64,000 bases of DNA from an uncultured Coriobacteriaceae bacterium (GTDB lineage Bacteria > Actinomycetota > Coriobacteriia > Coriobacteriales > Atopobiaceae), in the NCBI GenBank assembly GCA_902786015.1, contig CADAAU010000013.1, forward strand, positions 1 to 64,000. Direction: 5' to 3'. This document shows positions 36,275-40,749 of this stretch, one piece after another. How positions within the stretch are numbered: position 1 is the first letter of the stretch; each line of letters opens with the position of its first letter. The position numbers were made by a program, and so were the translations under genes. Under the pieces are notes generated by a model. The model saw only the letters and a list, made by a program, of their open reading frames with translations, did no database searches and had not been told where the DNA came from.

Positions 36275-37030
36275 TTACACCTTGACCAGATGCGCGAGTA
36301 CGGCCTCAAGGTGGGCTTGGGGGACTTTGCAGGATTCCAGGTACGACCGCACCGACCCATGGTGTGCGATGAGTGTATCGTAGACGGTGGCGATGGCCTC
36401 GAGTCGGGTGTATAGAAGATACGACTCAAAGGCGCTTTGGGGAGGACGCTCGGCCTGCACGTTTTGCACGTACTCATGCACGGTTGCGTCGACGCGATCC
36501 TTGTTGGCAAAGGAATAACAATAGTCGGCCAATATTTCTTCGCGTGGGACCTCGGCCAGCCCAAGCAGCAACATGGCCACCATGCCCGTGCGATCCATGC
36601 CGGCGGCACAGTGAAACAACACGCATTCATTCTTGTCGGCCAAAGCCATAAACGAGAATACCGCCCGCACCGCCTCGTCGCCTGCAAGCATGTGGAGGTA
36701 GCTTGTCACGAGGTAGTTGTTTACGTCGGTTTTGGGCACCATCGTCGGTGCGGAAATGTTCACATCGTAGAACCCCACGTTGCACCAGCGTACCCAAGAC
36801 TGGCGAGAGAACACGCAGGTTGCGCGTGGTGACTCCATCTCGCTGCGGAGGTCAAGCACAAGTCTCACGCCCCAACGCCTGAGCCTAAGCAGGTCGATGC
36901 GCGTAACGGAGGCGGTGGCGCCGCAGCGTAGGAATCGGCGCTCGTGGATTTTGCCATATGGGGAGTCGTATCCTCCAAGGTCGCGCAAGTTGGTGATGGA
37001 ACGTACGTTGGGTGCGAGGGTGGTGTCCAT
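36275..37030 (-). CDS. DSP/Tyr-type protein phosphatase
   Basis: 251 aa from ATG 37030, which follows AGGGAGGACGTC; the longer frame to 37174 would run into hydE. Marks are SITNLRDLGGYDSPYGKIHERRFLRCGA, VRLVLDLRSEMES and the catalytic loop FHCAAGMDRTGMVAMLL. It belongs to the same PF13350-like family as 7403-8185 but is clearly divergent. The start lies 10 bp after the hydE stop, so the two are probably one transcript. The functional link with hydE is unknown. Confidence 0.83.
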   Translation of the reverse strand: MDTTLAPNVRSITNLRDLGGYDSPYGKIHERRFLRCGATASVTRIDLLRLRRWGVRLVLDLRSEMESPRATCVFSRQSWVRWCNVGFYDVNISAPTMVPKTDVNNYLVTSYLHMLAGDEAVRAVFSFMALADKNECVLFHCAAGMDRTGMVAMLLLGLAEVPREEILADYCYSFANKDRVDATVHEYVQNVQAERPPQSAFESYLLYTRLEAIATVYDTLIAHHGSVRSYLESCKVPQAHLEAVLAHLVKV

Positions 37031-37040
37031 GACGTCCTCC

Positions 37041-38129
37041 CTACTCCTGATGGCACAAACGCACCGAGTTCGTGTGTGCCGTTTTTCGGATGTCGCCTCG
37101 GTCGATGACAACCTCGTACCCGATGTTGCGCATACGTATCTGTAGGCAGCTACGACACTGGGCGGCTTCGTCACCTATGCAAATCTTGTTGTCGTAGAGT
37201 TCGTACTGCCTGCGAACGGTGACAGGAGAGAGATTGGGCATCACGACGTTTGCCCCTGCCTGCATACCTTTCTCCCTGCCGCGAGCGTCAATGGTGCCAA
37301 GTGCTGTGGTGGCCGGCAGTAGCACAGGCGGATGAATGAGGCGAATCATACTGAGCAAATAGCATGTGAGTTCGAGCGTTCCTGCAGGATGGTCCTTGAA
37401 GGGCGTGTCGTGGTGCGGGATGAAGGGGCCTATGCCGCACATGTCGGGCTTGAATTCCTCGACGAAGCGCATTTCTTGGGCAAGGTGGGCGTTCGTCTGG
37501 AACGGTGCGCCCACCATAAACCCTGCGCCTACCTGATAGCCTATCTCACGCAGGTTGTACAGGCACTGCATGCGTGCATCCCAGCTCATGCCTTTGGGGT
37601 GCAGCCGCTCGTAGTGCTCTCTGGTCGCCGTCTCGTGACGTAGCAGGTAGCGTGTGGCACCGGCTTCATGCAGGAGCTCGTAGCTCGCACGACTTCGTTC
37701 TCCCATCGAGAGCGTTACGGCCGTGTCGGGACAGCTTGCCACAATGCGCGATACGATGCCGCACAGAATCTCGTCGGAAAAGAAGCTGTCCTCGCCTCCC
37801 TGGAGCACAATGGTGCGAAATCCCAGCTCATAACCCTCTTGAGCGCATGCGACAATCACGTCGGGCTCGAGTCGGTAGCGTTCCACGTTGCGATTGGATC
37901 GACGGATACCGCAGTAGAGGCAGTCGTTCTTGCAGATGTTGCTTATTTCGATGAGTCCGCGCGTAAACACGGTTTTTCCGTAAATGGGTTCACGGGCTTC
38001 CACGGCGCGTTGTGCAAGAAGCTCGGCGGATTCTGGGGTGCGGCCCGCAATGAGCTCCTCATATTCGCCGAGGGAGAGCGCGTGCTCTTGGCTGAGCCTG
38101 TCAATCAGCCGTTGCATGCGATCGTTCAT
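37041..38129 (-). CDS. hydE: [FeFe] hydrogenase H-cluster maturase, radical SAM
   Basis: 362 aa. The radical SAM cluster is CKNDCLYCG (Cx3Cx2C, about residues 66-73) within RGLIEISNICKNDCLYCGIRRSN, typical of HydE and its relatives. Supporting text is TIVLQGGED, GATRYLLRHETA, GAGFMVGAPFQT and PFIPHHDTPFKDHPAG. HydE helps build the dithiolate-bridged 2Fe subcluster. HydF, HydG and a hydrogenase are not in the window. C-terminal cysteines (QCRSCLQIR) could hold a second cluster. The ATG at 38129 follows AAGGGGGGTCTT. Confidence 0.9.
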   Translation of the reverse strand: MNDRMQRLIDRLSQEHALSLGEYEELIAGRTPESAELLAQRAVEAREPIYGKTVFTRGLIEISNICKNDCLYCGIRRSNRNVERYRLEPDVIVACAQEGYELGFRTIVLQGGEDSFFSDEILCGIVSRIVASCPDTAVTLSMGERSRASYELLHEAGATRYLLRHETATREHYERLHPKGMSWDARMQCLYNLREIGYQVGAGFMVGAPFQTNAHLAQEMRFVEEFKPDMCGIGPFIPHHDTPFKDHPAGTLELTCYLLSMIRLIHPPVLLPATTALGTIDARGREKGMQAGANVVMPNLSPVTVRRQYELYDNKICIGDEAAQCRSCLQIRMRNIGYEVVIDRGDIRKTAHTNSVRLCHQE

Positions 38130-38189: not shown

Positions 38190-39050
38190 CTAGGCTTCCG
38201 GCAAAGGAAACATAATGGACCAAGCGAGCGATCCGTCCCTGTCGTCATATGAGGTAACACCTCCGTGTATGGCAACGATGTCCGATACGGTGCTTAAACC
38301 GAGTGGACGAGCTGCAAATCTCTTGGCTGTCTGTGAGGGCCACAGAGGAGAGACGCCGTTTTCGGGGACGCAGGAGCTTGTGACTTCCGCAAAGAACTGT
38401 CCCGCCTGTATCTTTGAGCTCACGGTAATCTGCAACCTTTGAGGATGTGTGCCCTCGTGAACAAGGGCCTGGCATTCTCGCATAGCATTGTCGATGAGAT
38501 GTAAAAAGATTGCTGCAATCTCGGTGTCTTCGATGGGGAGGTCGACTGGAAGCGTGACGTATGTGCGAAAGTCGATGCCGGCATCCTCGCATTGCTGCGC
38601 CTTGCTCGAGAGCACGGCGGAAACCACAGCGTTGTTGCAACGTGGGGACATCGCCTGCGAGGCGAGCTCGATGCTCCTGTCCAGGTGTTCGCTCATGAGG
38701 TCTACGTTTCCCTGGCCAAGCGCGTTCTGCGCAGCGGCAAGTTCCTTGTCGATGCCTCGGGCCAGCTTGAGTGAGACTTGATTGGCCCGTTCGGCCCGTT
38801 CGGCGTATGCCTCGAGTGACTCCTCGAGTTGATTCTCGACTTCGCGGATATAGGATCGCTCTATGTAGCGTAATCGCCCAAGCATGCTACGAGCAATGAC
38901 GATGTCCACGATTGCGCTTGCAAGCATGAGGGCCATGCAAAGCAGTGTCTTGCCCGTGATGGGGTCTTGCATCCCATACGCTACGATGCCAACCTGCAGC
39001 ACAAACAAGAAGCAGAACACAACGATGACGTTGCTCGTTCTCCTCCTCAT
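38190..39050 (-). CDS. Half-kinase: membrane GHKL ATPase without the phospho-histidine
   Basis: 286 aa with two membrane helices (about 8-27 and 35-58) and a coiled coil (60-100). A DHp-like helix pair follows in which the His position is lost (SLKLARGIDKELAAAQNALGQGN). The GHKL ATPase domain has HLIDNAMREC (N-box) and RPLGLSTVSDIVAIHGG (G-box). The DHp-like stretch aligns with RRLRHELSNSSPVIVESVKNGN of its partner, where the His is kept. Its start overlaps the partner's stop by 4 bp (ATGA). It is probably the catalytic half of a two-protein kinase. Confidence 0.82.
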   Translation of the reverse strand: MRRRTSNVIVVFCFLFVLQVGIVAYGMQDPITGKTLLCMALMLASAIVDIVIARSMLGRLRYIERSYIREVENQLEESLEAYAERAERANQVSLKLARGIDKELAAAQNALGQGNVDLMSEHLDRSIELASQAMSPRCNNAVVSAVLSSKAQQCEDAGIDFRTYVTLPVDLPIEDTEIAAIFLHLIDNAMRECQALVHEGTHPQRLQITVSSKIQAGQFFAEVTSSCVPENGVSPLWPSQTAKRFAARPLGLSTVSDIVAIHGGVTSYDDRDGSLAWSIMFPLPEA

Positions 39051-39937
39051 GAGCGCTCCTCGGTGTTGTCTATGACGCTTTGGGCTTGTGCGCGCAGCGC
39101 GTTAAGATATGCATGCGCTTTTTTTGCATTGCCGTTTTTGACTGATTCGACAATTACGGGCGATGAGTTCGAGAGCTCGTGGCGCAATCGTCGCGTGATG
39201 GCAGCCTGTCGTGTAGCCGCGTCAATCTCGGTACGCATGTGCTTGGACTGGCGGGCGAGTGCCGTCCGGTCACTTGCCCGTCTTGTGGCGTAATAGTCTT
39301 GACGAAGGAGCGCGATAGAGGTCGTACTGAGAAGTAAGACCAAGACGTAGTACACCGTGCTCACGACCGAAAAGGAGGCGTCAATCGTGTACAGACCGTC
39401 GGTGGAAAAATACGTGCCCAAAATTGAGATACCGTACGACCAAAGCAGTAGAGCTACGAGCGACGGGACGACTCCGGTATCGAGATGGCGGTCTATACGG
39501 TTAAAGAACGAGATCATGGCTTCGAGGGCGACTGCCATGAGCGAGGTGGATACAAAGATGGAGACCATAATGATGAGAGGGCTACCCGTGCCGGCCGTCA
39601 GGAATGTGTTGGGGCCAAAGATGAGGACGAGTATCATGTCCGAGGCAAGACCAACAAGCATCAGGACGGCGGCGAGCAGAGCACAACGTAGAACTCGCGA
39701 GCGAAGCGGTCCGCGGGAATAGGCGATAGGGAAGACGACAAATACGATGGGGGCGATAACCGCCGTTCGCACAAGCGAGTTGACGTTTAGGGTGTCTAAG
39801 GCAAGTCCCAAAGCCATCCCTGACATGTTGATGATGGCAAACACGACATTCGATTTCATGTCGAGCAGCTTGCAGTAGGCTCGGATAATCAACAGCTCGG
39901 CAAGGATATTCGTGATTAGGCGCATGGCGTCTATCAT
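39047..39937 (-). CDS. Half-kinase: membrane sensor with DHp histidine but no ATPase domain
   Basis: About 296 aa from ATG 39937 (GGGGAGGATAAG upstream; the frame is open to 39985, which would overlap the regulator). Six to seven membrane helices fill residues 1-210, as in AgrC-type quorum kinases. A coiled coil and the phospho-acceptor segment TRRLRHELSNSSPVIVE follow. The protein then ends after one more helix, with no GHKL domain. The missing ATPase is in the next gene, whose own DHp lacks His. Together they make one functional kinase for the LytTR regulator upstream. Confidence 0.82.
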   Translation of the reverse strand: MIDAMRLITNILAELLIIRAYCKLLDMKSNVVFAIINMSGMALGLALDTLNVNSLVRTAVIAPIVFVVFPIAYSRGPLRSRVLRCALLAAVLMLVGLASDMILVLIFGPNTFLTAGTGSPLIIMVSIFVSTSLMAVALEAMISFFNRIDRHLDTGVVPSLVALLLWSYGISILGTYFSTDGLYTIDASFSVVSTVYYVLVLLLSTTSIALLRQDYYATRRASDRTALARQSKHMRTEIDAATRQAAITRRLRHELSNSSPVIVESVKNGNAKKAHAYLNALRAQAQSVIDNTEERS

Positions 39938-39945
39938 GGGTGTTC

Positions 39946-40665
39946 TTATCCTCCCCTTGATCCAAGGTATGCGAGTAGGTCGCATTGCACATCGCGTAGC
40001 TTCCTCCTACTCACGGGGATAATCGTGCCATCACGTAGGCATGCCTCACTGCCCTCGAAAGATTTGAGATACGCCAGATTCACCAAGAAGCTGCGATGGC
40101 AACGAGAAAAGTGCGCTGGCAGTTGCGCCTGCAGTTCGTCGAGGCGTGCGTATGTCTCGAAGGTCCGGTCGCCGCAATGGATAAGCGCCTTGTGCAGGCT
40201 GCTTTCCAAATATCGAATGGACGAGATGTTTATGAGCTGCTCCTTATGCCCGCATTTTACGCGAAGCATGGCGGGCCGTGCGGTAGGCAGTGCGTCGTAT
40301 GCCCTGCGAAGGGCATCGCGGAGCTTCTCTTCGTCAATGGGTTTGAGCAAGAAGTATACGTGACTTGTGCGATACACCTCGGGAGCTTGGCCAAGGTCTC
40401 CGCTCATGTAGATGATTTGGGTTCCCGCAGAGGGCGGAAAGAACCCCTGAACGATGTCGATGCCCGACGGCTGTCCCTCAGGCATCATGATGTCGGTAAC
40501 CAGTATGTCGATGTGGGTGTCGGCGGAGATGATTTGCGTGAGGTCGTCGATGCAATTTGCATCAAGTATGGTGCGAGACTCATCCTTTGGTGCGCATTGT
40601 TCGACAAGCGCGTGGATACGGGCAAGATACTGTGGGTCGTCGTCAAGTATGGCGATGGTCGCCAT
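39946..40665 (-). CDS. LytTR response regulator (AgrA/ComE type)
   Basis: 239 aa. The receiver domain has DDD (8-10), D58 in ILVTDIMMPEG and K in FLLKPIDEEKL. The LytTR DNA-binding domain is at about 135-235: INISSIRYLESSLHKALIHCGDRTFETYARLDELQAQL, FSRCHRSFLVNLAYLKSF and IPVSRRKLRDV. It is first gene of the three-gene regulator/half-kinase operon. A 21-bp direct repeat, the expected LytTR site layout, lies 51-84 bp before its start, so it probably controls its own operon. No AgrD/AgrB-like signal genes were found beside it. Confidence 0.9.
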   Translation of the reverse strand: MATIAILDDDPQYLARIHALVEQCAPKDESRTILDANCIDDLTQIISADTHIDILVTDIMMPEGQPSGIDIVQGFFPPSAGTQIIYMSGDLGQAPEVYRTSHVYFLLKPIDEEKLRDALRRAYDALPTARPAMLRVKCGHKEQLINISSIRYLESSLHKALIHCGDRTFETYARLDELQAQLPAHFSRCHRSFLVNLAYLKSFEGSEACLRDGTIIPVSRRKLRDVQCDLLAYLGSRGG

Positions 40666-40715
40666 TGAGCACTCCTCTCATGTGACGCGCTAACGTTGTA
40701 TCCAAAAATAGATTA

Positions 40716-40749
40716 CCAAATCTGTCGGTTAGACTGCCAAATCTGTCGG
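40716..40749 (-). promoter_or_regulatory. LytTR-type direct-repeat operator
   Basis: CCAAATCTGTCGG occurs twice, at 40716-40728 and 40737-40749, a 21-bp period (two helical turns). Paired imperfect direct repeats at this spacing are the standard target of LytTR regulators. The site is 51-84 bp upstream of the LytTR gene and over 200 bp from proA, so control of the regulator operon is most likely. Confidence 0.7.

Follow-up and report, generated by a model that had tools for sequence, protein, structure and literature searches.

Organization of the Locus

The window, a 64,000-nucleotide stretch of DNA from an uncultured Coriobacteriaceae bacterium, carries on its minus strand a LytTR response regulator (RR), followed by the H-half and then the K-half of a candidate histidine kinase (Table 1). 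The two kinase genes share an ATGA, in agreement with the 4-bp overlap given in a preliminary description of the locus. Downstream of the pair, at 36275-38129 on the same strand, are a HydE/BioB-like radical SAM protein and a Y_phosphatase3 protein, whose membership in the system is unsupported. Comparison of the neighbor genes of related loci revealed none that is broadly conserved.

Two direct repeats sit 44 bp upstream of the RR start. Similar repeats with the same spacing, resembling CGACAnATTTGG, occur upstream of the RR in loci L063, L066, L071, and L072, where they do not singly exceed the level of shuffled sequence. These repeats fit tandem LytTR sites through which the operon would regulate its own expression. 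A search for a wider regulon with the tandem-repeat pattern returned only the operon's own copy and two weak sites with 3 mismatches.

Table 1. Features of the candidate split kinase operon in the window
Feature	Position	Strand	Basis or remark
Two 20-nt direct repeats, 21-bp spacing, CCAAATCTGTCGG core; probable tandem LytTR operator	40709..40749	.	0 expected in shuffles
LytTR RR, 239 aa	39946..40665	-	Pfam Response_reg 8e-9, LytTR 4.5e-20
RR D58 codon, predicted phospho-acceptor	40492-40494	-	Asp conserved in every RR readable there
H-half, 296 aa: 7-TM sensor and DHp with phospho-His, no ATPase domain	39047..39937	-	AlphaFold2
H-half DHp region, about residues 235-295, RLRHELSN	39053..39235	-	
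H253 codon, predicted phosphorylation site	39179..39181	-	His in 76/76 readable H domains
Shine-Dalgarno-like GAGGAG of K-half, five bases before ATG	39056-39061	-	
ATGA overlap, 4 bp: H stop and K start	39047..39050	-	
K-half, 286 aa: 2 TM, His-less DHp, GHKL/CA domain	38190..39050	-	AlphaFold2, PDB fold matches
K-half R98 codon, aligned with H-half His	38757..38759	-	Sequence alignment, LARGID
K-half CA (GHKL) domain	38196..38630	-	Pfam, AlphaFold2, motif census
K-half N-box N188 codon	38487-38489	-	Kept
K-half G251 codon	38298-38300	-	Kept; first G-box Gly lost

The H-Half

The H-half is a polytopic membrane sensor with a C-terminal DHp segment. Its sequence contains about seven hydrophobic spans, and its AlphaFold2 model (mean pLDDT 91.1) contains seven transmembrane (TM) helices, the last of which runs continuously into DHp helix 1, bearing H253, and is followed by DHp helix 2 and the C-terminus. 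The chain stops about 40 residues after H253, which bears out the earlier statement that the upstream protein ends after a multi-span sensor and an RLRHEL site. H253 lies within RLRHELSN, where RHELSN corresponds to the [R]H[D/E]xxN motif of phospho-His DHp domains. H253 and N257 are the sole invariant columns among 39 H-halves, and the H and N of the HxxxN motif are invariant across families.

No significant Pfam match was obtained for the window H-half, NCBIfam matched neither half, and searching the PDB by fold brought up no relative of the H-half (E>1). H-halves bear a weak likeness to Spo0B-type DHp phosphotransferases (PF14689, below the cut-off). Because the H-halves scanned lack Pfam and NCBIfam matches above cut-off, they are probably annotated as hypothetical proteins, and the K-halves then look like incomplete kinases.

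The K-Half

The K-half is predicted by AlphaFold2 (pLDDT 86.8) to consist of two TM helices, a long helix that extends into the DHp, and a Bergerat-type alpha/beta domain. Its top PDB fold matches are the cytoplasmic kinase of S. aureus AgrC (6e95/6e52; E about 1e-9), and the AgrC CA domain 4bxi matches it with a TMt of 0.73. The position aligned with the phospho-His is an arginine, as had been noted from the LARGID motif.

Conservation of the ATPase domain is uneven. The window K-half scores 21.8 bits against Pfam HATPase_c_5, for which the cut-off is 22, and the E. lenta-type K-half scores 52.2 bits. The window protein reads HLIDNA at the N-box and retains N188 and G251, and its G-box reads RPLGL in place of the family's HGWGL. 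Thus, of the N- and G-boxes claimed for this protein, the first is present and the second is partial. In the three K-halves nearest to the window K-half (L063, L064, and L066), both the N-box Asn and the ATP lid are lost, and their partner H-halves keep the His in an HHV that replaces RHD. A similar double loss, of the N-box Asn and of the acid after the partner His, occurs in L081 and L082, and the Asn alone is lost in L073/L074 and L079/L080. The phospho-acceptor Asp is intact in all readable RRs of pairs that lack the N-box Asn.

Judged from these motifs, the K-halves without the N-box Asn (L063, L064, L066, L073, L074, and L079-L082) are possible pseudokinase lineages, and kinase activity driven by ATP may have ceased in part of the rumen lineage, perhaps in the window pair as well. 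The CA domain of the window pair is divergent, with a degraded G-box and three sister pairs that lack the Asn, and its catalytic competence is therefore uncertain; on sequence grounds, the chances for and against it appear about even. The earlier conclusion that the downstream protein keeps the ATPase accordingly holds for its AgrC-like CA fold and N188 and stays uncertain for the activity of this pair.

Conservation across the Coriobacteriales

Within the family of the window pair, relatives of the K-half and H-half occur in the same 15 genomes and lie side by side in nearly all of them. The close K-half relatives have 25-41% identity. The His is invariant in 29 H-halves of this set and never appears at the aligned K position. 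Twelve of these loci are assigned to uncultured Coriobacteriales/Atopobiaceae assemblies, some labelled sheep jejunum.

A K-half profile retrieved 20 further loci in other families, and all but one contain an RR (or part of one), an H-half, and a K-half. L119, the exception, begins at the edge of a contig, where the end of an H-half can still be seen. Motifs in these families are canonical, with RHDxxN in the H-half and NLxDNA and HGWGL in the K-half; the K-half residue at the His position is E, A, S, D, G, R, or T.

The survey for the pair in other genomes that had been suggested covered 301 genomes of Coriobacteriales, with E<1e-20 defining a strong H match. It yielded 82 strong H-half matches in 50 genomes, 79 of which adjoin a K-half on the same strand; the remaining three are at or near contig ends. 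Samples of 250 genomes from the class and 297 from the phylum gave no clear H-half beyond Coriobacteriales; the one match outside the order was weak and lay in a 464-aa frame. One system, at about 547.5-550.1 kb of genome G189, is probably that of the Eggerthella lenta type strain.

A motif census covered both halves. The motif could be read in 76 of 78 H domains, and the His is present in each of these 76, whereas 56 of 59 K domains lack it; the other three (L134, L137, and L138) have a His without an acidic neighbor. Of 61 domains, 52 (50 of the 59 K domains and two one-chain controls) retain the N-box Asn, and nine K domains have lost it. As a control, 10 of 11 one-chain relatives from the same order (the eleventh, L158, read in part) keep RHD/E and, with one exception, have a recognized N-box on the same chain. 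Such one-chain HPK10 kinases occur in the same genomes as split pairs.

Some loci depart from the three-gene layout. No RR was found in the fetched stretch around the H/K pairs of L067, L076, L077, L079, L080, and L081, and a K gene without an adjoining H-half or RR lies beside purine-biosynthesis-like genes at L148 5140-6210 (genome G295). Genome G137 has three H/K loci with only one full RR beside them. Taken together, the best reading of these sequences is that the split AgrC/HPK10-like kinase is ancient and specific to Coriobacteriales.

Natural Fusions and Multiplied H Genes

Single-chain H–K fusions occur at six loci in five genera. They are arranged as TMs, a DHp with RHDxxN, a linker, two TMs, a His-less DHp, and a CA domain; in the L128 fusion, the N-terminal TMs are absent from the frame read.

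H genes outnumber K genes at other loci: the ratio is 3:1 in L067 and 2:1 in L070, L073, L077, L081, L117, L135, and L138. L120 is arranged H-K-H, and L133 contains four H and two K genes. A second H gene, broken by a frameshift, lies upstream of the RR at 2556-3454 of L109 (contig C1 of G189, about 546.6-547.4 kb). A second H gene occupies the corresponding place in its congeners L106 and L107, and the match in L107 (genome G216) contains one in-frame stop.

Homology and Origin of the Two Halves

The two halves are homologous over their shared region. In a profile-profile comparison, the last two TMs (TM6-7) and the DHp of the H-half align with TM1-2 and the DHp of the K-half over 145 columns (probability 97.4, E 1.5e-11). 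The end-to-end DHp alignment of the preliminary description is thus confirmed and reaches further, into two TMs of the membrane region. A combined alignment of fusions and separate halves (A5), in which H-half DHps fell onto the K DHp, was discarded.

A tree of 133 two-TM and DHp segments contains a single 100/100 branch that separates all K-halves from all H-halves and conventional kinases. The K part of each fusion falls with the K-halves and its H part on the opposite side; the segment is short and the finer branching unsure. Across 35 loci, H-DHp and K-DHp distances correlate after RR distance is regressed out (r 0.50, p 0.001, by a partial Mantel test, which is known to be liberal).

The profile alignment and the predicted folds suggest that a full-length kinase was duplicated and that the halves are complementary truncations of it. 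The architecture would have a single origin, in which a full-length HPK10 kinase was duplicated within Coriobacteriales and the copies underwent complementary losses. Re-fusion in some lineages and multiplication of H genes in others would have come later.

Relation to Known Kinases

AgrC/HPK10 (HATPase_c_5) kinases are peptide sensors that share with the pair a multi-TM sensor, an HxxxN DHp motif, a LytTR partner, and, by the predicted K-half fold with AgrC as top PDB match, a GHKL CA fold; the HATPase_c_5 domain is clear in the family at large and just under the Pfam cut-off in the window K-half. They carry His and ATPase on one homodimerizing polypeptide, whereas here two genes show complementary losses: the His lies on one protein and the CA domain on the other, a DHp is present on both, and the K-half has two TMs only. 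One-chain HPK10 kinases of Coriobacteriales (e.g., L142, L144, and L149-L157) have homologous DHp and CA domains and in most cases an adjoining LytTR RR, but unlike the pair they contain the RHD/E motif and the ATPase domain in one polypeptide.

An agr quorum-sensing role was considered and rejected, as neither AgrB in the genome nor a broadly conserved neighbor gene was found. The AgrB search gave no PF04647 match at E<=0.001 in the genome, with a weak control (one weak hit in 14 genomes). The pair is AgrC-like in fold and RR type, yet no AgrB was found, so identity as an agr quorum-sensing system is unsupported.

Split histidine kinases have the phospho-acceptor and the ATPase on separate proteins, and motifs and AlphaFold2 models place them so in this pair. 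CheA3 and CheA4 of Rhodobacter sphaeroides likewise divide the phospho-His and the catalytic domain between two proteins, neither of which autophosphorylates alone, and many HisKA proteins lack an ATPase domain (PMC3591291). CheA3/CheA4 are built from CheA domains (P1, P3-P5) in a cytoplasmic cluster, whereas both halves here are membrane proteins with a DHp; Pfam scans of the halves found no CheA or HPt domains. Hik36/Hik43 (PilL-N/PilL-C) of Synechocystis is another kinase divided between two genes and encoded with an RR (PMC7656254), but it is a CheA-like HPt/CA split rather than a DHp-based membrane sensor pair. The open-access literature covered on split or heterodimeric kinases and on kinases of Coriobacteriia contained CheA-type splits only and no membrane HPK10 split. 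With CheA-type splits alone in this literature and His and ATPase on different chains, the pair is classed with the split histidine kinases and proposed to work like AgrC.

Proposed Mechanism and Alternatives

We infer heterodimerization, trans-phosphorylation, phosphotransfer, and autoregulation as follows. The H-half would supply the 7-TM sensor and a DHp with a phosphorylatable His, while an anchor of two TMs, a DHp partner without His, and an ATP-binding CA domain would come from the K-half. The homologous DHps would join the two halves, probably in a four-helix heterobundle, and the CA domain of the K-half would phosphorylate H253 in trans. From H253, the phosphate would be handed to Asp58 of the LytTR RR; by way of the tandem repeats, this RR probably exerts feedback on its own operon. 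The obligate heteromer and the restriction to phosphorylation in trans, both proposed at the outset, would follow from this anatomy. For the family, a heteromeric AgrC-like kinase is strongly supported by conservation of the pair, fusions, the K/H split, the AgrC fold, and correlated divergence. The proposal as a whole, a membrane split AgrC/HPK10 kinase that signals from the K-half CA domain through the H-half His to the LytTR RR, is considered likely.

That the two reading frames are one gene split by sequencing error or pseudogenization is vanishingly improbable. The 4-bp overlap alone speaks for it, while the K gene has a start and a Shine-Dalgarno-like site of its own and encodes two TMs. 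In addition, dozens of loci at 25-40% identity have the two-gene layout with separate TMs, and in fusions the K-half TMs and second DHp still follow a linker. These dozens of two-gene loci rule out an assembly artifact and exclude the joining frameshift that the preliminary description had envisaged. It is improbable, at a less extreme level, that the K-half is merely regulatory and that an unrelated full-length kinase phosphorylates the H-half. The Spo0B likeness of H-halves and the conventional HPK10 kinases in the same genomes would suit such an arrangement, but it is opposed by the strict linkage of the H and K genes, by their fusions, and by the canonical ATPase motifs of most K-halves.

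Separate H and K homodimers might instead meet transiently rather than form a stable heterobundle, as in CheA3/CheA4, the characterized split kinase, which uses a transient P1-P4 contact (PMC3591291). The several loci with two to four H genes per K gene are compatible with this arrangement; it is nevertheless unlikely, given that both halves retain a DHp and two homologous TMs, that 1:1 fusions occur naturally, and that DHp distances are correlated. The remaining alternative concerns the window sub-lineage, where the K-half may serve as a scaffold that is decaying or a pseudokinase, while the H-half would act mainly as a phosphatase or phosphotransfer partner of the RR, with phosphate from acetyl phosphate or another kinase. 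It draws on RPLGL and HLIDNA in the window K-half and on the sister pairs that lack the Asn and ATP lid and read HV for HD/HE while His and RR Asp persist. Against it, the window pair retains H253, E254, N257, and N188, and its modelled CA domain is well ordered with AgrC as the best PDB match; the scaffold reading is possible and somewhat on the unlikely side.

Implications for the Coriobacteriales

The multiplied H genes raise the tentative idea, given slightly less than even credence, of order-wide receptor kinases, obligately heteromeric, whose single catalytic K-half serves two to four different His-bearing 7-TM receptors per operon. If true, several inputs would vie for a single ATPase subunit and a single regulator.

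A classic laboratory proof of trans-phosphorylation is intermolecular complementation between kinase mutants that lack either the His or the ATP site. In a whole order of gut bacteria, just this state appears to have become fixed by evolution. Natural heterodimers of fixed direction, together with natural fusions, would provide test material for cis versus trans phosphorylation, signal asymmetry, and the ultrasensitivity predicted for split kinases.
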